Shown here: piece after piece, positions 76 through 41,634 of the stretch
Layout of the letters: each line of letters opens with the position of its first letter
How positions within the stretch are numbered: position 1 is the first letter of the stretch
NCBI GenBank assembly: GCA_020721965.1
Contig: DYLS01000038.1
Coordinates: 1 to 41,634, forward strand
Source: Blastopirellula marina
GTDB taxonomy: Bacteria; Planctomycetota; Planctomycetia; Pirellulales; Thermoguttaceae
Direction of reading: 5' to 3'
Length of the DNA stretch: 41,634 bases
Notes under the pieces: generated by a model
What the model was told of the DNA's origin: nothing
The model's database searches: none
Seen by the model: the letters and a program-made list of their open reading frames with translations, nothing else
Translations under genes and position numbers: made by a program

Positions 76-399
76 AACGCAAAATACCTCTTTCGGCTCT
101 CCGCGACTTGGCCGTGCTCATTCCCGGGCGATGTCCACCAACTTGCGGTGTTCCTGCTCAAGGCGTTTGACGCTCGCGACCGCGAAACCAACGCCCAGAA
201 TCCCGGCGTCCGCGTTTCACGACCAACGTTGCATGGGCTGGCCAACTGCTACTCCCGCGTGACCAATATCCCACCGGAACGCATCGAAGCAGAGCTGGCC
301 AAGGCAGGCTTCAGCTTGGGAGGAACAGTGGACTTCGATTCGGCGGACTCAGCGAACGAAGAGGGCGGGCCCAAGGGCCAACGTGAACGGAGATGCGCA
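76..399 (+). other. open reading frame remnant of unknown identity
   Basis: A reading frame open from a TGA at 73-75 runs without a stop into the zinc-ribbon remnant that follows in the same frame. It contains a protein-like stretch around 232-330 (GLANCYSRVTNIPPERIEAE) followed by an acidic then basic tail. No start codon with a ribosome binding site is visible, and I do not recognise a family. It may be the end of a gene that normally precedes the zinc-ribbon gene, or chance. A 7-bp perfect hairpin (21-27 with 39-45) lies upstream with no T-run after it. Confidence 0.25.
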
Positions 400-665
400 A
401 TGGCACGCCAGAAGAAATCCACCGGCAAGAGGGAACAGGTTCGGTAGTTTCGACAGCAGGATCGGGAGCGATGCGGCCTGTGCGGCAAGACGAAGAACCT
501 GATGACGACCGAGTGCTGCGGCAACTGGATTTGCGGCGACGAGCACAAGTACGTGATGTTCTCCTACGCCCGAAACAGTTGCAGCCGGAACCACTGCCGC
601 TACACGCTCTGCGGTTACCATCACGCCGAAGGTCACGCCGGCGACTGGAAGGACTGCCCGAAGTG
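400..665 (+). pseudogene. zinc-ribbon protein remnant with in-frame TAG
   Basis: From the ATG at 400 the frame reads MARQKKSTGKREQVR, hits a TAG at 445-447, and continues in the same frame through a Cys/His-rich domain. The motifs are CGLCGKT, TECCGNWIC, a CSRNHC segment, CGYHH and CPKC, ending near 665. The Cys pairs look like zinc-binding knuckles. From memory, small proteins with this pattern occur in planctomycetes and other environmental bacteria and have no known function; no domain name is claimed. The amber codon and the abrupt switch at about 661 into another frame that encodes an HsdR tail indicate a dead, truncated gene. The ATG has no strong Shine-Dalgarno sequence. Confidence 0.6.
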
Positions 666-6634: not shown

Positions 6635-7363
6635 ATGAATCGCATGTTTGGGTATCGACAACCTTCGCTGCACGATGCTTGGCGGTTTTCCCGCCGATCC
6701 CGATCCCTCCTCGGCGCGACCATGTTCGTGGTCAGTATAACGGCGTTTTCGGCCTCGCCTGCCGCGGCGCAATCGTCCAGCCTATTGGCCCGCGAGGGGG
6801 TGCCACCGCCCACGCTGAGCCGCTTTTCCTGGACCTATCAGGCCCCGCAACAACCGCGCACGCTGCGGCTGCACGATTTGATCACGGTGCTTGTTGACGA
6901 AAAGACTCAGGTGATCGCGGAAGGAAACATGGACCGTCGGAAAAAGGCGGATGGCAAGTTCGTCCTCTCCGATTGGATTCTTCTGAAGGGCTGGAAGTTG
7001 CTTCCCGCCCCGCAATCGTCTGGCGATCCGAAAATTGCCGCCCAAATGGAAAATAAATATCGCGCGGAGTCGGAACTTTCTACCCGGGAAGCCATGAAAC
7101 TGCGAGTGGCCTGCGAGGTGGTGGACATCCGACCCAACGGCACGCTCGTAATCGAGGGGCGGCGAGCAATCCTCGTAAACAACGAGAGTTGGGAGATCTA
7201 TGTTACCGGTACTGTCGATCCTCAAGCCATCCTGCCGGATAACACCATCCTTAGTGAAAACGTCGCCAATCTCCGCGTGGTCAAGCGCGAGGGCGGGCAC
7301 GTCCGCGATGGCTACCGCCGCGGCTGGCTTTTGAAATGGATGGACGAAAACCAACCGTTTTGA
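6635..7363 (+). CDS. flgH: flagellar L-ring protein FlgH
   Basis: 242 residues; forms the L-ring in the outer membrane around the rod. The N-terminus has a signal peptide (LLGATMFVVSITAFSASPAA, cleavage near AAAQ) but no lipobox cysteine, unlike E. coli FlgH, which is a lipoprotein. Family features are LRLHDLITVLVDEKTQVIAE, the SEL-like coil, the EVVDIRPNGTLVIEGRRAI strand pair, and VTGTVDPQAILPDNTILSEN with VANLRV. The start ATG is preceded by GGGAGA at about 6620. It is followed by flgI, whose longest possible reading overlaps its last 28 bases. Confidence 0.9.
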   Translation: MNRMFGYRQPSLHDAWRFSRRSRSLLGATMFVVSITAFSASPAAAQSSSLLAREGVPPPTLSRFSWTYQAPQQPRTLRLHDLITVLVDEKTQVIAEGNMDRRKKADGKFVLSDWILLKGWKLLPAPQSSGDPKIAAQMENKYRAESELSTREAMKLRVACEVVDIRPNGTLVIEGRRAILVNNESWEIYVTGTVDPQAILPDNTILSENVANLRVVKREGGHVRDGYRRGWLLKWMDENQPF

Positions 7364-8655
7364 CGTTCAACTCCGTTCCCCAACTCTGTCACCAATCGGC
7401 GAGCTTTGGCAGAATGGTATTAAAATCCTCACAATTGCCGACTCTCATGCTCAAGACGAAACCACCGTATAGGCATTTTGATATAGATTCTAATATTAAC
7501 AACGCGCACCCACACGGCACGAGCCAATCACAGGCAACATCGCCGTTCTCCATCGCCAATTTACTCGCGACGAAATATTCGCGTCGATGGAGCCACTCCC
7601 CCTGCATTCAACGCATCGTGCTGTTAGTTGTGGTGTGCCTTTCCATTGCCATCCTCGCCCGGCAGAGCCTCGCCGCCGTTCCGCTTAAAACAATATGCCG
7701 TGTCAAAGGGCAGGAAGAAAATACCTTGCACGGCCTGGGGCTGGTGGTCGGACTGAAAGGCACCGGCGACGGCGGGAGCTTTCTCCCCACCATTCGCAGC
7801 ATGGGCGTGGCATTGGAAATGATGGGGAATCCGCTTGGAAACAACGGCCTGAGCGAACTCAAAGACGCCAAAAACGTTGCCCTTGTCATGGTTACAGCCA
7901 CCGTCCCGGCCGCCGGTGCCCGGCAGGGCGACAAAGTCGATTGCACGGTGCATTCCGTTGGCTCCGCCAAAAGCCTAGCCGGCGGTACGCTGTTTCTCAC
8001 GCCGCTCGTGGGTCCGGATCCGCAAGATCCACGCGTTTATGCTTTGGCGGAAGGTCCGATCACGTTGGATGCGCCGGACATGAGTACGACGGGGCGCGTT
8101 CACGCAGGTTGCCGCTTCGAGGCCGACTTCTTCAACCCATTCGTCAAAGACGGCCGGATCACTCTCGTCCTCGAGCCCGCCTACGCGGACTTTCAGGTCG
8201 CCCAGGAAACCGCCGAAATGATCAATAGCCAAATGAGTGTGCAAACCGGCGGCGTCCCAGTAGCCAAGGCGCTCAATCAGCTCAATATCGAGGTGCTTAT
8301 TCCGCGACAATACGCTGAAGATTCTGTGCTGTTCGTTTCTCAGTTACTCGCCCTTCCATTGATGAATGTCCCGATCGGCCCACGCGTCGTGATCAATGAA
8401 CGATCCGGTACCATTCTCATTGGCGGTGATGTCGAGATCGCGCCGGTTGTCGTTACTCACAAAAACATGGTGATTCAGGCGGGCGTCTCCCCGTCTCAAT
8501 TCGTCGCCATGGATTCCCAACAAACTCAAAACCCCACGCTGAAATCCCTGGTTGACGCCTTGAACGCGCTGAACACGCCGCCCCAGGACATCATCACGAT
8601 TATTAAGGGGCTGGAACGCGACGGCAAACTCCGCGCGCAATTGATCCTCCAATAA
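7336..8655 (+). CDS. flgI: flagellar P-ring protein FlgI
   Basis: Forms the periplasmic P-ring. The longest frame is 439 residues. The mature FlgI part begins at AVPLKTICRVKGQEENTLHG, then LGLVVGLKGTGDGG, MGNPLGNN, KNVALVMVTATVPAAGARQG, a long conserved core, and the end LVDALNALNTPPQDIITIIK. A signal peptide core (IVLLVVVCLSIAILARQSLA) lies about 90 residues after the first ATG, so the real start is uncertain: ATGs at 7336, 7414 and 7447 all lack a Shine-Dalgarno sequence, and the two later ones would still leave 50-65 residues before the hydrophobic segment. A non-ATG start closer to 7600 is possible. The long pre-signal part is low in conserved motifs. Confidence 0.9.
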   Translation: MDGRKPTVLTFNSVPQLCHQSASFGRMVLKSSQLPTLMLKTKPPYRHFDIDSNINNAHPHGTSQSQATSPFSIANLLATKYSRRWSHSPCIQRIVLLVVVCLSIAILARQSLAAVPLKTICRVKGQEENTLHGLGLVVGLKGTGDGGSFLPTIRSMGVALEMMGNPLGNNGLSELKDAKNVALVMVTATVPAAGARQGDKVDCTVHSVGSAKSLAGGTLFLTPLVGPDPQDPRVYALAEGPITLDAPDMSTTGRVHAGCRFEADFFNPFVKDGRITLVLEPAYADFQVAQETAEMINSQMSVQTGGVPVAKALNQLNIEVLIPRQYAEDSVLFVSQLLALPLMNVPIGPRVVINERSGTILIGGDVEIAPVVVTHKNMVIQAGVSPSQFVAMDSQQTQNPTLKSLVDALNALNTPPQDIITIIKGLERDGKLRAQLILQ

Positions 8656-8742
8656 TCGATATCAACCTTTAACCCATATCAACCCTTCCATAAAAAAGAC
8701 GGGGGGAGACGCAGGCAAGAGACCAGCGTACCGGATCACCGC

Positions 8743-9213
8743 ATGATGACTCCTATCAACACGACTCGCATTCCCCATCATCCCGTTCTTGGGCCATCCT
8801 CCGCCACAGCGCGATGGATGCCACCGGCAACCGACCATGTCGCCGATTTTCAGGCCCTTCTGGCAGCACAGACGAACACTATCCCTGCTCAGGTGGGCTC
8901 GGGCGATTCCAAGACCCCATCACCCCTGACGAACCATGATCGCGCAAGCTCCCCACAGGCAGCCCCGCCTTCAGAAGATGAGGCTGTTCGTGATGCGTTT
9001 CAATCCTTCGTGGGCCAGACGCTTTTCGGGATGATGATCAAGGAAATGCGAAAATCCGTGAATAAAACCGCGTATTTTCACGGCGGGATGGCCGAGGAGG
9101 TCTTTGAGCAGCAATTGGACACGGTAATCGCCGAGAAGCTGGCAGCCGCATCCGGTGATAGATTTGCGACCCCGATGTACGAATTGTTCCAACTGCGCCA
9201 GACAAGCCGATAA
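8743..9213 (+). CDS. flgJ: FlgJ-type rod-binding protein without muramidase domain
   Basis: 156 residues. The C-terminal half (from about residue 82) matches the rod-binding domain of FlgJ: FQSFVGQTLFGMMIKEMRKS, then YFHGGMAEEVFEQQLD and a final helix. The first 80 residues are Pro/Ser/Ala-rich and probably disordered. The peptidoglycan-hydrolase domain present in enterobacterial FlgJ is absent, as in many non-gamma-proteobacteria, so a separate enzyme must open the wall. It caps or scaffolds rod assembly. Starts at an ATG-ATG pair 88 bp after flgI. Confidence 0.8.
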   Translation: MMTPINTTRIPHHPVLGPSSATARWMPPATDHVADFQALLAAQTNTIPAQVGSGDSKTPSPLTNHDRASSPQAAPPSEDEAVRDAFQSFVGQTLFGMMIKEMRKSVNKTAYFHGGMAEEVFEQQLDTVIAEKLAAASGDRFATPMYELFQLRQTSR

Positions 9214-9258
9214 TGGATTCCCTGAAAAAAGCCATTATATTCGATCATATACTCTGTA

Positions 9259-9275
9259 CGGGAGCGAAACTCCCG
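9259..9275 (+). other. small GC hairpin after flgJ
   Basis: CGGGAG (9259-9264) and CTCCCG (9270-9275) form a perfect 6-bp stem over a 5-nt CGAAA loop, about 45 bp after the flgJ stop. No T-run follows, so it is a weak terminator or an mRNA-stability element rather than a proven terminator. Confidence 0.35.
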
Positions 9276-9413
9276 GAGTAAGGCTGACCCTTGCTACCGC
9301 AACAGGCGTCCAGGAATAGACTGGCACACATTGGAAAACAATCGATGAGTGTTTTCTCTTACACCGTATAGAATTGCAATCCGTCACTTTATTGCATCGC
9401 AAGGACAGGATGC

Positions 9414-9905
9414 ATGTCGAACCATTGGACTTTCACCCTGGCGTCATTGCTGAACGAGTTATCCGATCTGCAACGGCATTTATTGGACGTTTTGGAACGG
9501 AAACGCCAGGCGCTGGCCAACGCGGACATGGAAGGCCTCGCAAGAACGACGGAGGAGGAAGGCCGCATCGCGGAGCAGCTTCAAGCTTTCGCGGCGAAAA
9601 GGGAAGTGTTGCTCCAACAGGCACAGCAGGAAGGGTTCGCCTGTCGCAATTTGCGGGGCCTTGCGGTCGCCGTCGAGGGGACTCGATCTTCCCACAAAAG
9701 ACAGTTTCAGGAGGCCGCTGACCGCTCCCGACTCATTCAAATCCAGGCATTGACGAACTGGATGCTCACACAGCGAGCGATGATACATCTTTCGCAACTG
9801 TTAGAGATTATCGCAACCGGCGGGCGTCTCAGGCCGACATATGATAAAGGCGAATCGCGTGTTCGCGTGGAAGCCTGCGGTGCCCTGGTAGATCAGGAGG
9901 TTTAG
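9414..9905 (+). CDS. flgN: FlgN-like flagellar export chaperone
   Basis: 163 residues, almost entirely helical with heptad patterns: LASLLNELSDLQRHLLDVLE, KRQALANADMEGLARTTEEE, and a long second helix through AKREVLLQQAQ. This fits the FlgN family, which binds the C-termini of FlgK and FlgL and pilots them to the flagellar type III secretion gate. The position directly before flgK and upstream of flgL supports the assignment; sequence identity in this family is always low, so context carries weight. A GGACAGG sits just before the ATG at 9414. Confidence 0.7.
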   Translation: MSNHWTFTLASLLNELSDLQRHLLDVLERKRQALANADMEGLARTTEEEGRIAEQLQAFAAKREVLLQQAQQEGFACRNLRGLAVAVEGTRSSHKRQFQEAADRSRLIQIQALTNWMLTQRAMIHLSQLLEIIATGGRLRPTYDKGESRVRVEACGALVDQEV

Positions 9906-9970
9906 CGAGTATCGAGAAAGGAGCCGCGACCGGCTAGCGTGGTCGCCATCGTCTGTCCGTAGGGTCCACT

Positions 9971-11671
9971 ATGTCGCTTTTCAGCTCAATCCGCATGGCC
10001 AACAACACCTTGCGAGCGGACCAGATCGCTCTCCAGGTGATCGGCCAAAATATTGCCAATGCGGAAACGCCGGGATATGTCCGCGAGGAGGTCATTCTCA
10101 AACCGGCGGCATCCTACAAGTTTGGTGGATTCACCCTCGGACTGGGCGTCGAGGTCTCGGCCATTGTCCAGAAGATCGACCAGTTTTTGGAGGAACGGCT
10201 TCGTGGTTCGGTCAGTGATCGGTCTTCGGCCGAGGTGCAGGAGCAAGCGTATCAACAGCTCGAGGGACTTATTCGCGAACTAAATGATACAGATCTCAGC
10301 AGTGATTTTACCCGTTTTTTCTCTGCCATCTCCGAAGTTCTCAATCAGCCCGAGAGTGCGGCCACTCGAAATCAAGTCGTATTACAAGCGCGCACTCTCA
10401 CCCAGAATATTCGGCGGTTGTACGAACGCGTGAATACCGTGCGTGCGGATTTTGATAAGCGGGTAGAAAACGTCGCGGACCGAATCAATCGACTGACGTC
10501 GGAAATACAACAGCTCAACATTCGTATATCTGAGATGGAGGGAGGAAGTACCTCTCAGAGCGACGCGGTGGGACTGCGTGACCGAAGGCAACAATCGCTC
10601 GAAGAGCTAGCCAGTCTCATCGATATACGAGTCGAGGAACAACCCAGCAGCGGCGTGGCGGTCTATTCGGGCGGGCTGTTCTTGGTCTACGAGGGCACGC
10701 GACGCGAGGTCGAGGTAACGCACACCACGAACCGGGGGCTAGCCGTCTCCGAAGTGCATCTCGCGGAGACGGATTCCAGTCTGGAAACCACGGGCGGCGA
10801 GCTGCACGGTCTCGTCCAGGCCCGCGATGAAGTGCTCGGCGGGTTCGTCGATCGCCTCAACGAATTGGCCTCGGCCCTGATCTTCGAATTCAACAAGATT
10901 TACGCCAGTGGGCAAGGATTGGCGGGATATCAAGATTTGACCAGCGCATCGGCGGCCTTCGAGCGTGACGTACCTCTCGATGCCGCCGGGCTTCCCTTCA
11001 CGCCCGTGAACGGCGCCTTCGATATCCTGCTCCGCAACACGAATAGCGGCGTTACCCAAACTCACACCATCCGTGTCAACCTGACCGGAGTCCAGGACGA
11101 CGACACGACCTTGGAAGACCTGGTTGATCAAATCAACGCCATCGATGGTTTGGAGGCGACCATCTTGTCCACGGGCAAGGTCCGCATTCACGCCACGGCC
11201 ACCGACACGGAGTTCGCTTTCGCCAACGATACCAGCGGCCTGCTGGCGGCGTTAGGACTGAATACCTTTTTCGTCGGGCAAAACGCGAGAGATATCGATC
11301 TGAACCCGGTCGTGGCCGCCGATCCCAAGACCTTCGCCTCCAGCCGCGCCGGGATTGGAGCGGACACCCAAAATGCAGTGAGTCTGGCGGCATTCCTGGA
11401 TCAGCCGTTATCCCAATTCGGTGACGTCAGCCTGGCCGCCACGTACGACGCCATGATCGCCGAGGTAACGCAAGGCGCCGCCCTCACCAAGGCGGAGGCG
11501 GAGTCCGCCCGAACCTTCGAGAGTACGCTCCGCGGCGAAAAGTTGGCTATCAGCGGCGTGAACCTGGATGAGGAAGCCATCCGCATGATCATGTTTCAGC
11601 GACAGTTTCAAGCCTCGGCACGATTCATCAAGACTCTCACCGACCTGCTGGATATACTAGTGAACATTTGA
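9971..11671 (+). CDS. flgK: flagellar hook-filament junction protein FlgK (HAP1)
   Basis: 566 residues. The N-terminus SIRMANNTLRADQIALQVIG then QNIANAETPGYVREEV is the FlgK/axial-protein signature, and a long coiled-coil D1 region follows (VRADFDKRVENVADRINRLT). The C-terminal helix SGVNLDEEAIRMIMFQRQFQ ASARFIKTLTDLLD closes the coil as expected. The middle (about 330-450) is the variable outer domain; INAIDGLEATILSTGKVRIH in it resembles the flagellin IN/FlgL modules next door. Forms the junction between hook and filament with FlgL. A 232-bp AT-rich gap follows before flgL. Confidence 0.93.
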   Translation: MSLFSSIRMANNTLRADQIALQVIGQNIANAETPGYVREEVILKPAASYKFGGFTLGLGVEVSAIVQKIDQFLEERLRGSVSDRSSAEVQEQAYQQLEGLIRELNDTDLSSDFTRFFSAISEVLNQPESAATRNQVVLQARTLTQNIRRLYERVNTVRADFDKRVENVADRINRLTSEIQQLNIRISEMEGGSTSQSDAVGLRDRRQQSLEELASLIDIRVEEQPSSGVAVYSGGLFLVYEGTRREVEVTHTTNRGLAVSEVHLAETDSSLETTGGELHGLVQARDEVLGGFVDRLNELASALIFEFNKIYASGQGLAGYQDLTSASAAFERDVPLDAAGLPFTPVNGAFDILLRNTNSGVTQTHTIRVNLTGVQDDDTTLEDLVDQINAIDGLEATILSTGKVRIHATATDTEFAFANDTSGLLAALGLNTFFVGQNARDIDLNPVVAADPKTFASSRAGIGADTQNAVSLAAFLDQPLSQFGDVSLAATYDAMIAEVTQGAALTKAEAESARTFESTLRGEKLAISGVNLDEEAIRMIMFQRQFQASARFIKTLTDLLDILVNI

Positions 11672-33385: not shown

Positions 33386-34135
33386 TCAAGCGTGCCTTGC
33401 CGTGCCTTCCGCCATCCCACGCCGACGTGACCGTGCGATGACAAACGCCAGTGGGAGTGCGGCTACCACCGCTAGGAGAAAGCCCCCCGCGACCAGCGTT
33501 GTACGATCGGCATAGCGAACGCAATAGAACGCCAGTTTGAGATATTCGCTGATGACGAAAAAGAAGCCGTCCGGGTACAGCCACCATCGTTGCGGATCAA
33601 AGCTGTCGCCGACCGCCGAGACGAACCTGGCCCGCTTGGCATCGGGGCCTAACACGCGACGCACGCTCCAGGCAGTCCGCCGCGTGTGCAGGGCATCGGT
33701 CACCACGAGCACGGTGGCTCGCGGATGATCGCGGAGAAAATCTCGCAAGGATACGATTTCATCGAACGTCGAGGCGTGGTTCCCGGGCAGCAGAATGATG
33801 GACTCCTCCGGCACTCCCAACATCAGCAGAATCTTTCGCGTGAGATCGTGCTCGGCAGGCAGTATCGCCTCGTTCGGCCCCTCCAAGAGCGGAAGTTCGG
33901 AAATCAGGATGTGGTTAACCCACCCGTGGTGGAGCAGGCTAGCTGCGGCGAATGGCCGGGTCTCTACACCACCACCCAAGATCATGGCGTAGTCCGCACG
34001 CCGTGGTGGCTCCCCTACATCCAAAAACTGTGCGATAGCCCGAAGCGTCTGCGGTCGCGCCAAAATGAACAGCACCAGTACCGTGAGCAGCGCAGCTAGC
34101 CCATACAGCCAGATTTTCCGTCCCACTGTGCTCAA
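33386..34135 (-). CDS. DUF218 (YdcF/ElyC/SanA-like) membrane protein
   Basis: 249 residues from a TTG at 34135-34133, which has GGAGGT 6 nt upstream; the longer frame from 34282 has no family sequence before it. An N-terminal membrane helix (IWLYGLAALLTVLVLFILAR) is followed by the DUF218 core: ADYAMILGGGVETRPFAAAS, HILISELPLLEGP, LMLGVPEESIILLPGNHAS, DEIVSLRDFLRDHP, TVLVVTDALHTRRTAWSVRR. It ends with another membrane helix. DUF218 proteins such as ElyC and SanA act in envelope and peptidoglycan precursor homeostasis; the exact reaction is unproved. The start overlaps the stop of the upstream gene (CCTTGA), so the pair is translationally coupled. Confidence 0.8.
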   Translation of the reverse strand: MSTVGRKIWLYGLAALLTVLVLFILARPQTLRAIAQFLDVGEPPRRADYAMILGGGVETRPFAAASLLHHGWVNHILISELPLLEGPNEAILPAEHDLTRKILLMLGVPEESIILLPGNHASTFDEIVSLRDFLRDHPRATVLVVTDALHTRRTAWSVRRVLGPDAKRARFVSAVGDSFDPQRWWLYPDGFFFVISEYLKLAFYCVRYADRTTLVAGGFLLAVVAALPLAFVIARSRRRGMAEGTARHA

Positions 34136-34923
34136 GGGGCACCTCCGACCCTGGGCGGAAAGCGATCCAGCAGTTCCCGGACGGTGAATTCTGGGGGATC
34201 GGGCGGACGCGGAACCACCAGGCCATGCGTTCCGAACAGATAACCGCTCATGATCGCTTTGACGCCGGTCCGACTTCGCCACCAGTACCGCACGTCGAAT
34301 CGGCGATCGGGGACCTCGAACACCGCGACTCGCTCGCGGATATCGGGTGCCATCGCCCGATCAAAAACGCGTTCGGCGGCTGCACCCGCAAAGGTCTCGC
34401 TCAAGAAAAGTACCCGGTCGCCACGGTGCTTCTTCAGGTATTCTTGGAGCCACTCCGCCGCGTCCCAAAGCTGGCCACGGCGGTATGGCGCCCCGATCAC
34501 GTTCTCGGGCGGGATCCCTTTTCGAGCGACAGCCTGCCGGACGACTTCGTCCATGCATGGCAGCGCCCCCAGTGCCACCACGCGGCTCGGGCGTCCCACG
34601 GTGAACAAGATTTTGGCCCCGTGGCGATGCTGAAGCTCTACTAAGATGTTCAGCGTATCCTGTCCGGGGAGAGAATGGCCGTCACCGCTGTGAAGCCAGA
34701 TCAGGGTTGGCGAGAAACCCTTGGGCAGCGACCGGGCGCGAAGCGGAGCCGCCGCCCACCTTAACCAATATACGTGTGTTGCGATGGCGAGGATCGCGAC
34801 CAAAACCAATAGCGCGATCTTCGCTCGGGAGTGAAACACACGAACGGGGGACCTCGCCATTGCGACTGGCGAGGGAGTGACGCCGGGTGTGTCCGTGCTC
34901 TCGGGGCACTCGTCTCCCGTCAT
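34132..34923 (-). CDS. diverged DUF218-like membrane protein
   Basis: 263 residues, ATG at 34923 with GGAGGTGA 6 nt upstream, an unusually strong site. One membrane helix (IALLVLVAILAIATHVYWLR) near residue 40. The rest follows the DUF218 layout in order: TLIWLHSGDGHSLPGQDTLN, HGAKILFTVGRPSR, RKGIPPENVIGAPYRRGQLW, AAEWLQEYLKKHRGDRVLFL, RYWWR. The conserved glycine-rich and His residues of the family are replaced, so I call it diverged. It is likely an old tandem duplicate of its downstream neighbour, and the two may form a hetero-oligomer. Confidence 0.55.
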   Translation of the reverse strand: MTGDECPESTDTPGVTPSPVAMARSPVRVFHSRAKIALLVLVAILAIATHVYWLRWAAAPLRARSLPKGFSPTLIWLHSGDGHSLPGQDTLNILVELQHRHGAKILFTVGRPSRVVALGALPCMDEVVRQAVARKGIPPENVIGAPYRRGQLWDAAEWLQEYLKKHRGDRVLFLSETFAGAAAERVFDRAMAPDIRERVAVFEVPDRRFDVRYWWRSRTGVKAIMSGYLFGTHGLVVPRPPDPPEFTVRELLDRFPPRVGGAP

Positions 34924-35005: not shown

Positions 35006-35257
35006 TCACGGGCAAGGGCAGGGGCAACAGCAACACGGGTCGCCGGGGGGACAAGACGAGGGATCGCAGGTCCCGCAGACATTGATCGCTTGAACCGCAT
35101 TCGCCAAGTCATTCAACTCGCTCAACAGCGCGTTGCGTACCGCCGCTAGCCCCCCAATGATCCCAATCACTACGATGGAAATCAAGAGGATCCACTCGAA
35201 GCTCAACATCCCGCGACGTACGTGCCGTCGCGACTTCCGAAAAGAAGTCGGCTGCAT
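35006..35257 (-). CDS. Flp/type IVb pilin-like peptide with Cys-rich tail
   Basis: 83 residues from the ATG at 35257 (GGAGAAA about 8 nt upstream). A basic leader (TSFRKSRRHVRRG) precedes MLSFEWILLISIVVIGIIGG, a class III-type pilin segment with Glu at position 5 after the Gly, the pattern cut by prepilin peptidases (TadV/PilD). A helix continues as AAVRNALLSELNDLANAVQA. The tail has nine cysteines (CGTCDPSSCPPG then DPCCCCPCPCP), which is not usual for Flp pilins. No tad genes lie in the window. The tail could bind metal or form disulfides once exported. Confidence 0.65.
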   Translation of the reverse strand: MQPTSFRKSRRHVRRGMLSFEWILLISIVVIGIIGGLAAVRNALLSELNDLANAVQAINVCGTCDPSSCPPGDPCCCCPCPCP

Positions 35258-35783
35258 ATCAATCTTTCTCCGTGTTGCACCGAACCACGTCCTGAAAACT
35301 GGCGATCTTTCTCGATGTGCATCCCACGGCATCAGGCTGCCGGGAGGAATGCGGCGTTCCCGTTGGGGACAGGGCCTATTACGAGTTACGCAAGCCCCCA
35401 GCCTTGCGGACGCCGCACGCACTCGGGCACCACCTCCAAGAGTGCAGCTCGCGTGCCAAACCTGGAAACAAAAGCTGGCAGAGCGTCCCCACCCGCTTCG
35501 AAAGCGTTATATTCGGTACAATTCGCATCACCTTCCCACAAATTGCCCCGCGGGGTGTTTTGCCCAATCAACACCCGTGGAGGCGATGTTGCCGCATTGC
35601 AACACGCTACCGGCCGATTCGCGTCGATCGGAGGCACCCGATTTGCGGTGATCGCAGGCACGCGGCATCGGCGGGTGCCGAGAGAGGAACATAGATGGAA
35701 GGGGCCGCCGCGCCGCAGCCACGGCGATGCGTCGCGTCCGTCGCCGCTTACGACGCCTCCGCGACATTAGCGCATGGCAAGAG
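35258..35783 (+). other. gene-free spacer upstream of the pilin-like gene
   Basis: 526 bp between the pilin-like gene and the end of the RidA-like lipoprotein gene. Open frames here are Arg/Pro-rich shadows. A TATAAC at about 35510 on the minus strand lacks a matching -35. Nothing else recognised. Confidence 0.35.
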
Positions 35784-37148
35784 CTACCGCGCCGCGGGCA
35801 CGGCGATGCAGTCGATGACAACGCTACGACCGGCCCGGCCCACTCCCGCCACCTTGGCCTTGGAAGCAGCGGGCGGGCGGCTCGGGTCGAGGTATTCACG
35901 GCGCAAGACGTCGATCGCCTTGGCGGCATCATCGTCCGAAACGAAATAATGGGCCTTGGCCCCGTGCCGCAAATCGCTGCCCACATCACCCAACGCCTCT
36001 ACCAGTTGGTTAAAAGCATCGCGGGTCTGGGCGGCGCCGTCTCCATCCTTGCGAGCGACGAAGCCGGCCGTGAAAATCACGGTCGAGCTGGCCAATACCG
36101 CCGCGCGACTGAAATTCGGCGACGGCTTTACGCCGGGAGGATTGTAAAGCTGAAGCGAACCCGCGACTTCCGCTTTATCTTTCGCCGTGGCGGAACGGCA
36201 GGCGATCATTTCGATTTCCACGGGCGCTGACGCAATCCAATTCACGAAGCTGACAGGCGGTACGGGCTGGCCTGCAAAGGCCGCCCGAATCGCTTCCAGT
36301 ACCACCGGCGCATCTTCCATTTTCGCCAAGAAGACCCTGATTTGAGCAACGTCCTGCGGCTGGCAATCCAGCTCAGAAGCCAGCGCGAGTTGCCACTTCA
36401 ATGAGGCCTGTGCCGCCTCCGCGATCTCGCCCTTTTCCGGTCGGCCCGACAGAAACACCAGTCGTTCGGACGGTGCCACGCTGTAATCCGCAGGCGCGAG
36501 TGGGCCGCCCCCGGCCGACGCGGATTTACGAACCCCTTCGGATCCCTCGCCGTCAACGGCCGCGACAACATCGATGGCCAACTTCTCAGACGCCTCGGAC
36601 AGGGGCGTTTCCACAGCGGTAACCACGGGAGCACTTCCAGGCGGCAGCAGCTCGGGCAATCGGTTGACGAAGGTCGCGACTTCGTCCGCTGGCGAGCCAT
36701 AGGCATTGATTCGCACTACGTTGCTCAGATTGGAGCCGCCCTCTTCCAAGATCTTGGACAGCCTCTCAATCAGCCCGTCGATCGAATGGTTCCCGTCCGC
36801 TCCCATCGCCAACTGGCGCGTGAAAAGCAGCGGCATTTGATGGACCACGACCACAGCCGACGTTGCAGGATGCCAGCCTTGCCCCAAACGGTGAATCCCG
36901 CGACTCCACTCCTTCAAGCCTTGGGCTGAGGTTGCCTCGTTCGTGGCAGGCTGTGCCGACGTGCCACTCGTCGAAGGTGTGCCGCCAGCTAAAGGCGTAC
37001 CACCAGTTGAAGGCGTGCCGCCAACCGAAGGTGCGCCGCCAGATGAAGCGGCCTGTTCGCCGTTCGGCACCGGTGAATGGGGACATCCGACGAGGAGGGG
37101 AAGAAGTAACAATCCCAGAGCGAAGGCCCGACGTATCTCTACTTTCAT
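35784..37148 (-). CDS. lipoprotein with three RidA/YjgF-like domains
   Basis: 454 residues from the ATG at 37148 (AAAGGCG upstream); the longer frame has no family-like start. Signal and lipobox LGLLLLPLLVGC (Cys22) make it a lipoprotein. A linker with hexapeptide repeats (GGxPST, residues 37-60) follows. Three chorismate-mutase-like RidA folds then follow: 97-199, 222-320 and 344-452, each with an N-terminal strand, two helices with a 'V..I.V..' pattern (LSNVVRINAY, VAQIRVFLA, RHGAKAHYFV) and a final strand (AIDVVAAV, EIEMIACR, VVIDCIAV). The catalytic Arg of RidA (PARS motif) is not present in any of them (PVVTAV, PPVSFV, PAASKA), so classic imine deamination is doubtful. Just downstream of the Gfo/Idh gene. 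Confidence 0.7.
   Translation of the reverse strand: MKVEIRRAFALGLLLLPLLVGCPHSPVPNGEQAASSGGAPSVGGTPSTGGTPLAGGTPSTSGTSAQPATNEATSAQGLKEWSRGIHRLGQGWHPATSAVVVVHQMPLLFTRQLAMGADGNHSIDGLIERLSKILEEGGSNLSNVVRINAYGSPADEVATFVNRLPELLPPGSAPVVTAVETPLSEASEKLAIDVVAAVDGEGSEGVRKSASAGGGPLAPADYSVAPSERLVFLSGRPEKGEIAEAAQASLKWQLALASELDCQPQDVAQIRVFLAKMEDAPVVLEAIRAAFAGQPVPPVSFVNWIASAPVEIEMIACRSATAKDKAEVAGSLQLYNPPGVKPSPNFSRAAVLASSTVIFTAGFVARKDGDGAAQTRDAFNQLVEALGDVGSDLRHGAKAHYFVSDDDAAKAIDVLRREYLDPSRPPAASKAKVAGVGRAGRSVVIDCIAVPAAR
36969..37040 (-). repeat. 18-bp coding tandem repeat (GGxPxx hexapeptide x4)
   Basis: Four in-frame 18-bp units encode GGAPSV, GGTPST, GGTPLA and GGTPST in the linker of the RidA-like lipoprotein. 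Copy number is likely to vary by slippage; the repeat sets the distance of the domains from the membrane anchor. Confidence 0.7.
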
Positions 37149-37231
37149 TCCTAGATCGCCTTTTCTCGGATTTCCAAACCACCACGGAACAAAGGTGCTT
37201 TTGGCCCCAAGCCCTTCCGCTGGATCGTCCG

Positions 37232-38674
37232 TCACACCGTCTCGGGTAACTCGTACCCTTTTCGCTTTGGACAATCGAGCAAGGAATTGGCCTCTGCATC
37301 GTCGGGAAAGGTCTCGTTTTGGGGGTCCCATTTGAGCCGTCGCCCCAGCCACCGGGCGATATTCCCCAAATGGCAGAGGGTGGCCACGCGGTGGCCGTTT
37401 TCCACCTTCATGATGGGATCTTTGCGTGATTTCACGCACTCGTAAAAATTGTGCATGTGGTTGTCGCTCTCGTAGACCCGGATCGCGTCCGACGGCAACG
37501 GTTGTTGATCCAGTTCTGGGGGATCGCATTCGTAACCACCGCGGAAGACGGTGATCTTCCCCTTATCGCCGATGAAGGTCCCGCCGCCCCCCAATCGCGA
37601 ATCTGTGCTTTCCAGTTTGAGGATTACGTCGTTCGGGAAGCGGTAGTGCACGACGGGGGAACTCATGGATTTGTCGCCGCGGTCGCGATTCTCGGGCTGC
37701 TCGTAGGTCAACGAGGCGAGTTTTTCCTCGGGTTCTACCCAAACTTCGACCGGGCCGCTCTCGTCCATGCCCAAGCCCCACAAAACCATGCTCAAGCCGT
37801 GGCAGCCCCAATTGAGGAGTTCGCCTCCGGAATACGGTCGCAGCGACATCCATCCCGGCCCGACCGCCGCCTTTTCGGCTGGCTCTGGCGGATAGTTTTC
37901 GCGGTTGTACGGGACCCGCGGCACGTACGCATTGATGTTGAATGGGACGACCTCGTTTTGCCCACACCAAGCGTCCCAGTTCAGATCGGCGGGAACCGGC
38001 TCCTCTGCAAACTTGTAATCCCAGGGGCTGGGGTAGTTGTACCCAATCACCGTATGGACCTTGCCGATGAAGCCGTTGAGGATCATTTCCACAGCCTTGC
38101 GTGTTTTGGGATGAGACCGCTGCTGCTCGCCGGTCTGGAAAACGCGGTTGTATTTGCGAACCGCCTGCACCATGACCTGACCTTCGCGGATGCTGTGGCT
38201 GAACGGTTGTTCGCCGTAAATGTCCTTTCCGGCCTGACAGGCGTGGATGCATGGCAAATAATGCCAGTGCTCGGGGGTGGCGTAAACAACGACCTCGACC
38301 TCTTTCAGTTCCAGCAACTTGCGATAGTCCTGAAAAGGCTTGGCCTTGTATTTTTCCGCCCACTGCCCCGCCCGCTTCATGTTAAAGTCAGCGACGGCGA
38401 CGATCTTGGCGTATTCGGGCGGTTTTCCCTGCCCGCCTTTCCCGATCGCCAATTGCCCGTTGCGTCTTCCGCAACCGATGATACCGACTCCAATCCGCTC
38501 GTTTGCGCCCTTGGCGCCCTCGGGGAGGACGTTTGGTACCGCCACCTTGGATTCGCTTTCGGTTGGTTTCTTACACGAAGTCAGAGACGCCAAGGTCACG
38601 CCGGCAGCGACCCCGGCCATTCGTTGCAGCGCGTCCCGTCGATTCAAGGACTTTTCTTGTGGTTTAGTTTGCAT
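37232..38674 (-). CDS. Tat-exported Gfo/Idh/MocA-family protein lacking the EKP lysine
   Basis: 480 residues. The N-terminus has a twin-arginine signal (SLNRRDALQRMAGVAAGVTL) that ends in LTSC, a likely lipobox. The Rossmann core follows: IGVGIIGCGRRNGQLAIG, KIVAVADFNMKRA, VEVVVYATPEHWHY, then GKDIYGEQPFSHSIREG. Normal family members have EKP here, with Lys as an active-site residue; this one has Gln156 (codon CAA, 38207-38209). The C-terminal beta-sheet domain includes WGCHGLSMVLWGLGMDESG and the end WDPQNETFPDDAEANSL, as in planctomycete and Bacteroidetes secreted homologues. The family oxidises sugars and related polyols with NAD(P); activity without the Lys is uncertain. GGGAG lies upstream of the ATG. 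Confidence 0.85.
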   Translation of the reverse strand: MQTKPQEKSLNRRDALQRMAGVAAGVTLASLTSCKKPTESESKVAVPNVLPEGAKGANERIGVGIIGCGRRNGQLAIGKGGQGKPPEYAKIVAVADFNMKRAGQWAEKYKAKPFQDYRKLLELKEVEVVVYATPEHWHYLPCIHACQAGKDIYGEQPFSHSIREGQVMVQAVRKYNRVFQTGEQQRSHPKTRKAVEMILNGFIGKVHTVIGYNYPSPWDYKFAEEPVPADLNWDAWCGQNEVVPFNINAYVPRVPYNRENYPPEPAEKAAVGPGWMSLRPYSGGELLNWGCHGLSMVLWGLGMDESGPVEVWVEPEEKLASLTYEQPENRDRGDKSMSSPVVHYRFPNDVILKLESTDSRLGGGGTFIGDKGKITVFRGGYECDPPELDQQPLPSDAIRVYESDNHMHNFYECVKSRKDPIMKVENGHRVATLCHLGNIARWLGRRLKWDPQNETFPDDAEANSLLDCPKRKGYELPETV

Positions 38675-38823
38675 CTGGAAATCTCCCTTGGCTCACGGCC
38701 GTTGAATACGTCAGAATGGGATGGCTACCCCCTGGGGCCAGAAGTGACTCTATTGTTCTTTTGATCATGCTTGGGCACGATGACTCTCATCGAATTGCGA
38801 ATCGGCACGCCCGCCGAACCGCG

Positions 38824-40191
38824 TCACGTCCCCATAATTCGAGGATATACCTTCCGAATGGCGGTGACGATATCGCGCAAGTCCGCGTCGTCGAAATTCG
38901 GATCGATGATGACGCCGCCGAACCGGCCGATGATGTCGATGGTGCGTGGGCAACACGCTGCGCCATACTGAACGGCCTTTCCTTCCGGCGAGTTGAAGGA
39001 GGGCCAGGCAGGATGCACCGTCACTTTGTTCTCGATACGCGGATCGGTCGGCAGGATCGCGGACCCGGCGGGCCCACCAGCGGCGATTCCCTCAGCTCGC
39101 AATGCGCGAAGGAAACGATCTCGATGCTCGCGATCGCCAAAATCGATGAATACGCCCACACCGACATCGCCCTCCACGTCGGGCCACTTGCGGAGCTTGA
39201 TGCCCGGCAAATCCGCAATTCCCTCTCGCACCATCCGATTGTTCCGCCTCAACCGCTCGCAGATCGTCTCTAACTTGGTGAGTTGTGCTTTCAGCACCGC
39301 TCCCGTAAATTCATTCATACGGAAGTTGCACGAGGCAAAGGCGGCCAGCAATCCACCCTTCAGCACTTCATCATAGGGCGATCGGATAGTACCCACGTCA
39401 TGAAATCGGACGGCCCGTTCGAACAATTCTGGGTCGCTCGTCAGAACGCCTCCCCCTTCGCCCGAAGTTATTGTCTTACTGAGCTGGAAACTATTGATTG
39501 CGATGTGCCCGATGGAACCGACATACTTGCCCTTATATTTCCCGCCGCAGCATTGGGCGCAGTCTTCCAGAACGTAGAGGTTATGGCGTTTTGCGATCTC
39601 CATGATCGGATCGAGGTCGGCCACCGTTCCCTGAAGGTGAACTGCAATGATCGCCTTGGTACGCGGCGTGATTCGGGCCTCGATATCGTTGGGGTCGATG
39701 TTGAACGACTCGTCGATTTCGGCAAAGATGGGCAGGGCACCGGCCAAAACGATGGCGTCGTAATCCGCATACCACGTCCAGGCCGGCAAGATGACCTCAT
39801 CGCCCGGACCGATTTCCAGGGCCGCCATGGCGGTAAACAATGCCGTTGTTCCCGAGGTAACCCCCAAGGCATATTTCACGCCGATGTGTTTCGCCAACGC
39901 CTCTTCGAACTGTAACACTTTTGACCCGCTGTGCCACCAACGGAACGGGCTACGGGATCGCAGCACCTCGATCAGTTCGTGCTCCTCTTGCTCGTCGTAG
40001 AATTGCGGCCCGTAAGGCGACGCCGACAATGTGCCCTCGCGAACCGGCTGGCCGCCGTCGATGGCAAGTTTTTCCGCCTCCGCGGCCTCAGCGGAGGGTG
40101 AGGCCCACCCGCCGCCACGAAGCATCGAAACAGCCCCGGCCGCCCCCATCGCCTCCAGAAAGTGCCGCCGACTGGTGATGTCGCTGTGCAT
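38824..40191 (-). CDS. Tat-exported DegT/DnrJ/EryC1-type aminotransferase
   Basis: 455 residues. The N-terminus MHSDITSRRHFLEAMGAAGA is a textbook twin-arginine signal (SRRHFLE), with a cleavage site near WASPSAEA. The enzyme part has the DegT fold-type I motifs: YALGVTSGTTALFTAMAALE, GDEVILPAWTWYADYDAIVL, AIIAVHLQGTVADLD, YVLEDCAQCCGGKYKGKYVG, and the PLP lysine in NSFQLSKTITSGEGGGVLTS (Lys239). The family transfers amino groups to keto-sugars or cyclitols. Most members are cytosolic, so export is unusual; folded, PLP-loaded export by Tat would make sense of it. 149 bp upstream of the Gfo/Idh gene on the same strand, likely one functional group. AAAGGTGAACC precedes the ATG. Confidence 0.9.
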   Translation of the reverse strand: MHSDITSRRHFLEAMGAAGAVSMLRGGGWASPSAEAAEAEKLAIDGGQPVREGTLSASPYGPQFYDEQEEHELIEVLRSRSPFRWWHSGSKVLQFEEALAKHIGVKYALGVTSGTTALFTAMAALEIGPGDEVILPAWTWYADYDAIVLAGALPIFAEIDESFNIDPNDIEARITPRTKAIIAVHLQGTVADLDPIMEIAKRHNLYVLEDCAQCCGGKYKGKYVGSIGHIAINSFQLSKTITSGEGGGVLTSDPELFERAVRFHDVGTIRSPYDEVLKGGLLAAFASCNFRMNEFTGAVLKAQLTKLETICERLRRNNRMVREGIADLPGIKLRKWPDVEGDVGVGVFIDFGDREHRDRFLRALRAEGIAAGGPAGSAILPTDPRIENKVTVHPAWPSFNSPEGKAVQYGAACCPRTIDIIGRFGGVIIDPNFDDADLRDIVTAIRKVYPRIMGT

Positions 40192-40596: not shown

Positions 40597-41634
40597 TCAT
40601 GCCGCGGCCAATTCTGCGGCATGGGCGTGAATCTTGCGAATCGCCTCCGCAATCTGATCCATCGCGGAACGCTCCGCCAAAAGCGTGGATTGGTAAAACC
40701 ATACGGATTCGGCACACAGCTTGTCATTCTCGGGGCATTCGCACCGATTGGCCCAGTTAGCCAGTTCCGCGTCGCCATAGACCCGACGATAAGCTGGCGA
40801 TGCGAGGGCATCCCGGATGAACTCCGCCTCGTTGAGCATGTCATAGCCGGGGCTACAGGGGATTCCTTCTGCCCGGAGTGCCTTCACAAAGCCATTCCGT
40901 GAAAGCCCCGCAAACTCCTCGGGGGAGTATCGGAACATATACAGATGATAGGCGTTTCGGGTACAGTCTTCATACATCTCAGCAGGCTGAATCCCGGGAA
41001 TGTCTCGCAACAGCGAGGTCAAATACGCGCCGTTCTCCGATCGGGTGGCGGCACGGGCCTGGATATCCGGAAGCTGGCTCAGCAGCACCGCCGCCTGAAA
41101 TTCCGTCATGCGAAAGTTACCGTTCCTCCCACCGCGATACGAGAGAGGTCCCTGCGCTCCACGTCGCCGCCGCAGGCAATTGTGAAAGGCGAAACAGGCG
41201 TCAGCCACCGCTTCGTCATTGGTGATCATCGCTCCCCCGTCTCCCGAGCACAGATTCTTGCTCAGTTGGAAGCTATAGCAAGCGGTAGTCCCCCAACTTC
41301 CTGCCGACTTCTTCTTCCATTCGGCCAAGTGGGCCTGGCAAGCATCGCCGACCACGGGAATCTTTTGTTTTTCCGCAACAGCCAGGATGCAATCCAAATC
41401 TGCCACATTACCGCCGATGTGCACGGGGATGATCGCCTTGGTGCGGTCAGTTACGGCGGCCTCCAGCTTGCCCGCGTCCATCAGAAACGTCCGCGGGTCG
41501 GAGTCTACAAAAACGGGCAAGGCGTGGTGAAGCAACACGACCGTCACCGTTGCCAGGAACGTGAAGGGTGGCACGATCACCTCATCGCCGGGGCCCACTC
41601 CCAACGCGCCGAGCGATGTAAACAAAGCTGTTGT
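40597..41634 (-). CDS. second DegT/DnrJ/EryC1-type aminotransferase, N-terminus off the window
   Basis: 345 codons are present; the frame continues past the right edge (TTALFTSLGALGVGPGDEVI), so the start and any signal peptide are missing. DegT motifs: VPPFTFLATVTVVLLHHALP, AIIPVHIGGNVADLD, VVGDACQAHLAEWKKKSAGS, and the PLP lysine in YSFQLSKNLCSGDGGAMITN. The C-terminal half has NGNFRMTEFQAAVLLSQLPD and RNAYHLYMFRYSPEEFAGLS. It is a paralogue of, not identical to, the DegT gene 405 bp downstream. The product is predicted to be a sugar or cyclitol aminotransferase; whether it is exported cannot be seen. Confidence 0.88.
   Translation of the reverse strand, partial: TTALFTSLGALGVGPGDEVIVPPFTFLATVTVVLLHHALPVFVDSDPRTFLMDAGKLEAAVTDRTKAIIPVHIGGNVADLDCILAVAEKQKIPVVGDACQAHLAEWKKKSAGSWGTTACYSFQLSKNLCSGDGGAMITNDEAVADACFAFHNCLRRRRGAQGPLSYRGGRNGNFRMTEFQAAVLLSQLPDIQARAATRSENGAYLTSLLRDIPGIQPAEMYEDCTRNAYHLYMFRYSPEEFAGLSRNGFVKALRAEGIPCSPGYDMLNEAEFIRDALASPAYRRVYGDAELANWANRCECPENDKLCAESVWFYQSTLLAERSAMDQIAEAIRKIHAHAAELAAA

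Follow-up and report, generated by a model that had tools for sequence, protein, structure and literature searches.

The 41,634-nucleotide contig DYLS01000038.1 of Blastopirellula marina (assembly GCA_020721965.1; family Thermoguttaceae), analysed whole and referred to here as the window, ends in four consecutive minus-strand genes. Running from 41634 down to 35784, they encode two DegT/DnrJ/EryC1/StrS aminotransferases (DegT2 and DegT1), a protein with the Gfo/Idh fold (Gfo) and a Rid lipoprotein (Rid). On the sequence features described below, the chances are evenly split that this cluster constitutes an extracytoplasmic amino-sugar transamination module, performing amine chemistry on sugars or cyclitols beyond the cytoplasm. 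Taken separately, export of the cluster proteins is very likely, sugar amine chemistry is probable and, given chemistry of that kind, a catabolic direction is slightly favoured. The window is the entire contig C332 of its genome (G000; 4.95 Mb in 380 contigs), and the gaps between the genes, in the order DegT2 to Rid, are 405, 149 and 83 bases. A first-pass annotation had reported three adjacent exported-looking open reading frames (ORFs) here, and their place, strand and export motifs proved correct; the cluster has a fourth member, DegT2 (40597–41634), just beyond the region it covered.

It had been set beforehand that the neighbours should stay together in relatives, and they do. We searched 60 genomes (the window's own, 3 of its genus, 33 of its family and 23 of its order), with thresholds of at least 60% identity for DegT1 and Gfo and a match for Rid; greedy gene calls in stretches rich in guanine and cytosine are rough, and the counts rest on tblastn. 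Rid was found in 18 genomes, DegT1 in 18 and Gfo in 19, and all three occurred together in 15 of the 60, with a union of 21 (pairwise Fisher p < 1e-9, ignoring kinship). Rid was missing from G004 and G026, Gfo from G001 and DegT1 from G032, and Rid or Gfo stood alone in G048 and G007, respectively; completeness is 82%, 79% and 73% for G004, G026 and G032, and the assembly of G001 is split into 1120 contigs, while G048 and G007 have no comparable excuse. In nine of the 15 genomes, all three genes lie on the same contig and strand (G000, G002, G003, G008, G013, G018, G025, G030 and G035). They are split over two contigs each in G016, G019 and G021, and displaced members are DegT1 in G015, Gfo in G033 and, in G010, the pair of DegT1 with a third aminotransferase type, DegT3. 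The positions of DegT2 and DegT3 are variable, with intervening genes between DegT3 and DegT1 in G019. Identity to the window proteins ranges over 63–85% for DegT1 (alignment A1), 64–90% for Gfo (alignment A3) and 29–61% for Rid. Conservation of the set rules out a chance neighbourhood. DegT1 is rare outside the family, being present in 4 of 392 genomes at an E-value of 1e-85, three of them within the family.

DegT1 (38824–40191, 455 residues) carries an N-terminal extension of ~39 residues (40075–40191) with a twin-arginine translocation (Tat)-type motif, SRRHFL, in which R8, R9, F11 and L12 (RR-x-F-L) are invariant in all 16 rows of A1; two DegT1 proteins outside that alignment have RREFL (L086) and RRGFV (L085). 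Counted by eye, the twin arginines (RR) are present in all orthologues with a visible N-terminus for DegT2 (9), DegT3 (8) and Gfo (16). The N-terminus of the window's own DegT2 lies beyond the contig end, and its nearest orthologues (L066 and L068) carry the RR. Gfo (37232–38674, 480 residues) has the Tat motif NRRDAL and a lipobox-like LTSC, and a lipobox-like cysteine ends the signal in 10 of 16 Gfo N-termini. Rid (35784–37148) has the lipobox LLVGC (Cys codon 37083–37085), and its orthologues start with lipobox-like or otherwise hydrophobic stretches, with one RR motif (L089), again by eye. With the DegT1 motif invariant and TatC encoded in the genome, the export signals are more than chance, and DegT1 shows the sequence features of a Tat substrate, RR and a hydrophobic stretch conserved in orthologues. 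It is thus highly unlikely that the N-terminal motifs are unused, with cytosolic proteins and an artefactual export reading: the hydrophobic (h-) region of the window's DegT1 is weak, being short and charged, and it failed our strict Tat rule and passed only a relaxed one, but its motif is invariant among orthologues and common to three separate DegT clades in four phyla, its partners carry matching export signals, including the Rid lipobox, and the Tat machinery is represented. Within the genome, Tat-tagged Gfo/Idh proteins are ordinary (21 of 30 N-termini by eye, from the 30 best-scoring of 52 PF01408 matches). Tat-tagged DegTs are uncommon, with 2 of 5 among those with a visible N-terminus: the six clear PF01041 proteins (E < 1e-70) comprise two with the RR (DegT1 and one on contig C50), three without it and DegT2, whose N-terminus is missing.

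The export label was followed on a quick maximum-likelihood tree of 142 DegTs, with Shimodaira–Hasegawa-like approximate likelihood-ratio test (SH-aLRT) support only and a Tat label rule that we set ourselves. The sample consisted of planctomycete relatives, the other DegTs of the genome and the best 80 of at least 592 named-locus pattern matches (one genome per species), which are no census; L052 and L053, which duplicate L090 and L091, were left out. Over 144 rows, the strict rule scored 48 as exported and 91 as not and left 5 unscored, with two more rows skipped. The relaxed rule newly labelled window_38827, L065_6903 and L060_1495 as exported, the last of which we judge a false positive because its RR lies upstream of the likely start. 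Exported DegTs form three separate clades spanning four phyla. The DegT1 clade (22 of 22 exported, support 99) includes two Acidobacteria, one Verrucomicrobia and one Phycisphaerae record; the clade of DegT2 and the contig C50 type (20 of 20 scored, support 100) includes Bacteroidota and Opitutae; and the DegT3 clade has 8 of 8 scored proteins exported, with support 99. The tree requires 4 changes of the label, where shuffled labels required 41.5 on average; one of the 4 is L060_1495, and a hand count without that row, with no re-run, gives 3. Given this clade structure and the few label changes, Tat export of DegT appears to have been gained or fixed about three times. Two of the exported lineages occur in the window, and all three are found together in G004, G013, G018 and G030. 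Strain-named records with exported DegTs are Petrimonas sp. IBARAKI and Membranihabitans maritimus; in the open-licence literature searched, we found no report of Tat-exported DegTs. The further Tat-tagged type is found on contig C50 of G000 (L092, 1948–5223) and in L075, and contig C50 also encodes a transporter-like protein that is 71% conserved in G015.

Both aminotransferases of the window belong to PF01041, with 275.7 bits for DegT1 and 254.7 bits for DegT2, whose 5′ end is lost at the contig end, against a cut-off of 19.8. All 16 DegT1 sequences share K239 (codon 39475–39477, minus strand), D210, Q213 and the GEGG loop, and the corresponding K126, D97 and Q100 of DegT2 and DegT3 are invariant in 18 of 18 rows. 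We take the lysines, of which K239 aligns with that of KdnA, to be the pyridoxal 5′-phosphate (PLP) lysine and the Asp and Gln to belong to the cofactor site. Because these residues are invariant, the DegTs look catalytic, and the option of a non-catalytic descendant of amino-sugar enzymes, which the first-pass annotation had left, is unlikely for them. The solved structure nearest to DegT1 is KdnA, 8-amino-3,8-dideoxy-octulosonate transaminase (5k8b; E 9.9e-78 by profile), and scyllo-inosose aminotransferases are also near, L-glutamine:2-deoxy-scyllo-inosose aminotransferase (5w71) being the other top match; both matches span only ~300 of the 455 residues. KdnA and enzymes of the 5w71 type act on free keto-sugars or inososes, not on nucleoside diphosphate sugars.

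The Gfo partner has lost a residue that its family usually keeps. Both the Rossmann and the C-terminal domains of Gfo/Idh/MocA proteins are present (PF01408, 62.4 bits; PF19051, 73.8 bits), and the EKP lysine, presumably the catalytic lysine of these dehydrogenases, is replaced by Gln (EQP; Q156, codon 38207–38209, minus strand) in 15 of 15 cluster orthologues. This position aligns with the lysine of the nearest solved structures, 8tdf/8tdh and DgpA, which keep the EKP motif, as do 28 of the 30 best-scoring Gfo/Idh proteins of the genome, the exceptions being the cluster Gfo and L096. EQP was also seen in the Gfo of G033 (contig C7) and G007, and EKP in those of L281, L240, L133, L165 and L088 (second Gfo); the Gfo of L127 was left unscored, its EQP sitting outside the motif position. 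We take 8tdf/8tdh to be of the BT2158 glycoside 3-dehydrogenase type, and Gfo scores 98.3 against the NCBIfam BT_2158 family, for which the cut-off is 750. That Gfo makes keto-sugars, as was first proposed, is therefore uncertain, since the missing lysine makes a standard dehydrogenase doubtful. The Asn of the NWGCH motif, conserved in 15 of 15, was considered as a distinctive mark and discarded, the same column in the 30 best Gfo/Idh proteins of the genome having Asp in 17, Asn in 6 (cluster Gfo included) and other residues in 7.

The Rid gene had been delimited as an ORF at 35784–37529. Its presence, PF01042 match (71.6 bits) and lipobox hold, but an ATG at 37148 is the likelier start because the longer ORF overlaps the Gfo gene, which gives a protein of ~454 residues with a Ser/Gly/Thr-rich, low-complexity linker after the lipobox. 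One Rid domain was implied at first, but the AlphaFold2 model (mean predicted local distance difference test score, pLDDT, 81.8; predicted template modelling score, pTM, 0.79) has three Rid-fold domains in the chain, at residues 88–201 (36558–36899), 210–321 (36198–36533) and 336–453 (35802–36155), all on the minus strand. Profile stretches matching solved Rid proteins fall in all three parts of the chain. The Rid monomer 3kjj_B superposes on model range 85..458 with Z 16.7 and a root-mean-square deviation of 2.0 over 119 aligned residues, a range suggesting that the N-terminal strand may close the ring onto the last domain. At the position equivalent to Arg105 of RidA, arginine is absent from all 51 domain positions, 17 for each of the three domains; the PPAASK motif of domain 3 is kept in 17 of 17. 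In the available excerpt of a study of the family, this arginine is essential for imine hydrolysis, and Rid proteins without it are thought incapable of that reaction, their roles being open (PMC4433059). We reject the RidA-type imine removal attributed to this protein by the first-pass annotation, since none of the three domains has the arginine on which that reaction depends. Three Rid-like domains per chain are also found, according to the excerpts available, in 3x-RidA proteins such as EF_0115 (PMC4433059) and in cyanuric acid hydrolase (Toblerone fold), a concatenated Rid-like chain with a new function (PMC3758960). Chorismatases and Toblerone enzymes top the Foldseek list for the Rid model, with poor superposition of the whole chain (template modelling score ~0.2–0.3); unlike 3x-RidA, cyanuric acid hydrolase and chorismatases, the cluster Rid is an exported lipoprotein, and it lacks the RidA arginine. 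The cluster also gives a context for Rid proteins without the imine-hydrolase arginine.

The losses in Gfo and Rid are what a sensing or binding module would display, in which exported enzyme folds bind sugars without catalysis and Gfo and Rid act as ligand binders. We consider this quite unlikely, since the PLP Lys, Asp and Gln are invariant in DegT1 and in its paralogues and DegT1 is conserved as an active enzyme would be.

The triple Rid also occurs apart from the cluster, being present in 22 of 392 genomes of the phylum, and was discarded as a marker for it; no DegT-labelled ORF was seen in 19 triple-Rid stretches from outside the window's family. The exported triple Rid adjoins a secreted protein of ~680–700 residues in nine stretches from class-level relatives (L232–L235, L237–L239, L241 and L250), and the two of these proteins that were scanned have a weak Peptidase_S9 match. 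A Gfo/Idh-family protein adjoins it in L240 and L249 (PF01408, 66.2 and 34.9 bits), and in L242 (8645–11857) its neighbour combines 3keto-disac_hyd and GSDH domains, hinting that Rid proteins of this type may belong to keto-sugar chemistry.

A ceramidase-like amidase (Ceramidase_alk) accompanies many of the exported DegTs. At the 80 named loci, it is found at a distance of up to 1.5 kb from 8 of 14 exported DegTs against 9 of 72 untagged ones (p 7e-4, ignoring kinship), and 9 of another 21 planctomycete loci, selected for similarity to DegT2, have it as well (L280–L300, from 26 places; omitted were two on the 3.1-kb contig L262, one in G025 and two in G000). Beside the family cluster, it is above the Pfam cut-off in G025, G003 and G019 and below it in G016; a further protein below the cut-off lies ~6 kb off the cluster in G032, and Amidohydro_2 occurs near the cluster in G013 (~2 kb off) and G019. 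Of the amidases next to exported DegTs, 12 of 13 bear an export signal themselves, against 2 of 15 next to untagged ones (p 7e-5, ignoring kinship), the amidase signals being read by eye and not blind to the DegT label. The two export states agree in 25 of 28 pairs, the mismatches being L203 (exported DegT, untagged amidase) and L166_16866 and L191 (untagged DegT, tagged amidase). Omitted from the pairs were L284 (exported DegT, tagged amidase), with which the count becomes 13 of 14, and L161 (untagged DegT with two amidases, one of them tagged). We regard this match as the strongest indication of genuine export through these tags and of a pathway shared by the amidase and the transaminase. 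A cytosolic twin is found on contig C126 of the same genome (L093:10029–13526), where an untagged DegT, an untagged Gfo/Idh protein with EKP and an untagged Ceramidase_alk are adjacent. In the one-contig genome G002, of the same genus, DegT2 lies apart from the cluster (L298; C1, ~2.842 Mb; 7163–10148) and is divergent from a signal-bearing Ceramidase_alk gene. The idea that a ceramidase gene lies just past the end of our contig was dropped, the orthologue of that DegT2-adjacent gene sitting mid-contig in the window's genome (C258, 20353–21624 of 49085). An apparent fusion of DegT and amidase in L291 and L300 was also dropped, being out of frame by coordinates.

Amino-sugar genes were found at four of six Bacteroidota loci with exported DegTs (L162, L163, L166 and L168), with no nag/mur/GH20-type match at the other two (L174 and L196). 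The Petrimonas locus L162 encodes a DeoR-type regulator, a DegT, Ceramidase_alk, a MurQ-family protein (297 bits against NF003915, cut-off 168; below the cut-off of TIGR00274) and a major facilitator superfamily (MFS) transporter that is NagP-like below cut-off and above the cut-off of the gluP subfamily; the NagP-like transporter of L166 has the same score pattern. L163 has a GH20 gene. The Tannerella locus L168 encodes NagA (TIGR00221, 310 against a cut-off of 225.65), NagX-like and NagB-like proteins, both below cut-off, an APH-type kinase, a XylR-type regulator and a sialic-acid esterase domain. Glucosamine in the periplasm is the proposed acetylation substrate of NagX, a distant relative of a putative Tannerella transporter of N-acetylmuramic acid (available excerpt of PMC9007349). 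At the 80 named loci, nag-type genes accompany exported DegTs at 4 of 14 loci against 2 of 66 (p 0.008), a comparison that is biased, and serves as context only, because the query genes came from those same exported loci. In the window's family, XylR-type regulators are divergent from the cluster in G018 and G030.

The direction of the chemistry could be the opposite one, with the exported enzymes aminating keto-sugars of an extracellular polymer or envelope glycan. Gfo/Idh with DegT is a known biosynthetic pairing (WbpB/WbpE and NtdC/NtdA), many structure matches of DegT1 are biosynthetic sugar aminotransferases, and a scan of seven proteins at this end of the window gave neither a transporter nor a glycoside hydrolase. 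We nevertheless regard biosynthesis as somewhat unlikely, as the amidase companion, the XylR-type regulators and the Nag, MurQ and GH20 contexts look catabolic, and nucleotide sugars are not expected outside the cytosol.

Of the proposal of exported amino-sugar chemistry in the first-pass annotation, the export signals, the conserved set and the amidase, MurQ-family, NagA, NagB-like and GH20 contexts speak in favour, but its imine-removal step has fallen. Several observations weigh against a transamination module. The loci fetched from the window's own family gave no nag, mur or GH20 match, so the case for amino sugars is borrowed from remote relatives of DegT2 and the C50 type; those closest to DegT1 outside the family (L124–L127) showed no such genes either. 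There is no Rid match at any of the 80 named loci, which makes the Rid partner a feature of the window's family. Two of the three partners, Gfo without its lysine and Rid without its arginine, may not perform the chemistry of their families, and a periplasmic amino donor or acceptor has to be assumed. As for the amidase, six of the 14 exported DegTs at the 80 named loci have none nearby, untagged DegTs have it too, and no ceramidase gene lies beside the cluster in the window. A kinship-aware test of the pairs counted 3 independent export switches (mean 2.3 in the same way, 0.0 opposite and 0.6 with no difference), for which the sign test, with a median p of 0.5, is not significant by itself; on the tree, the amidase signal changes 6 times and DegT export 3 times.

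Downstream of Rid, the window encodes a short protein (35006–35422) with a hydrophobic stretch, a Cys/Pro-rich tail and no Pfam match, part of which has an 83% conserved counterpart at the equivalent position in G003 (L079:413–655). Beyond it, two minus-strand frames overlap at 33386–34923, one a DUF218 protein (PF02698, 46.1 bits) and the other with a hydrophobic N-terminal stretch and no Pfam match.

If the cluster is a transamination module, DegT1 and its paralogues would fold and bind PLP in the cytosol and then cross by Tat as loaded enzymes, which we infer from the conserved RR signals and PLP residues and from the precedent of PvdN and PtaA. Outside, they would transfer an amino group, with a sugar in its amino or keto form as one partner and a small amino or keto acid as the other; PLP would be regenerated on the enzyme in every cycle, so that no free cofactor would be needed. 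The Gfo-fold protein would bind the keto-sugar and probably transform it with a permanently bound nicotinamide, or else may have lost hydride transfer. Rid would be a membrane-tethered covalent three-domain chain carrying out a reaction other than RidA-type imine hydrolysis. In the catabolic direction, an exported ceramidase-like amidase would deacylate N-acyl amino sugars before the amine is removed. A broader proposition could equally turn out right or wrong: that bacteria from four phyla or more transaminate sugars beyond the cytoplasm, with DegTs recruited to Tat in three separate lineages. In one planctomycete family these lineages would come together in a cluster, joined by a Gfo without its lysine and an exported, covalently linked Rid trimer, and would form the core of an extracytoplasmic amino-sugar pathway relying on tightly bound cofactors, with cytosolic twins (DegT and ceramidase-like amidase both untagged) in the same or related genomes. 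If this is true, amino groups of sugars would be transferred in the periplasm with no pool of free cofactor to draw on, an unexpected step in the use or building of amino sugars by Planctomycetota, Verrucomicrobiota, Acidobacteriota and Bacteroidota. Exported cofactor-dependent sugar-amine enzymes would be unusual because such enzymes need bound cofactors.

For the export, the closest precedents come from Pseudomonas: PvdN and PtaA are PLP enzymes of the periplasm that leave the cytosol by Tat with their cofactor bound and act on pyoverdine; they tailor its glutamate, not sugars, and the available excerpt mentions no Gfo or Rid partner (PMC6206403). The likeness of DegT1 to them consists of sequence features only, a Tat signal and an intact PLP site. 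Sugar transaminases are otherwise regarded as cytosolic enzymes fed by nucleotide sugars or phosphosugars, as are the Gfo/Idh and DegT pairs of amino-sugar synthesis, WbpB/WbpE and NtdC/NtdA, which are cytosolic and use such substrates. The cluster places the same two families side by side; unlike those pairs, its members carry export signals and its Gfo has lost the lysine.

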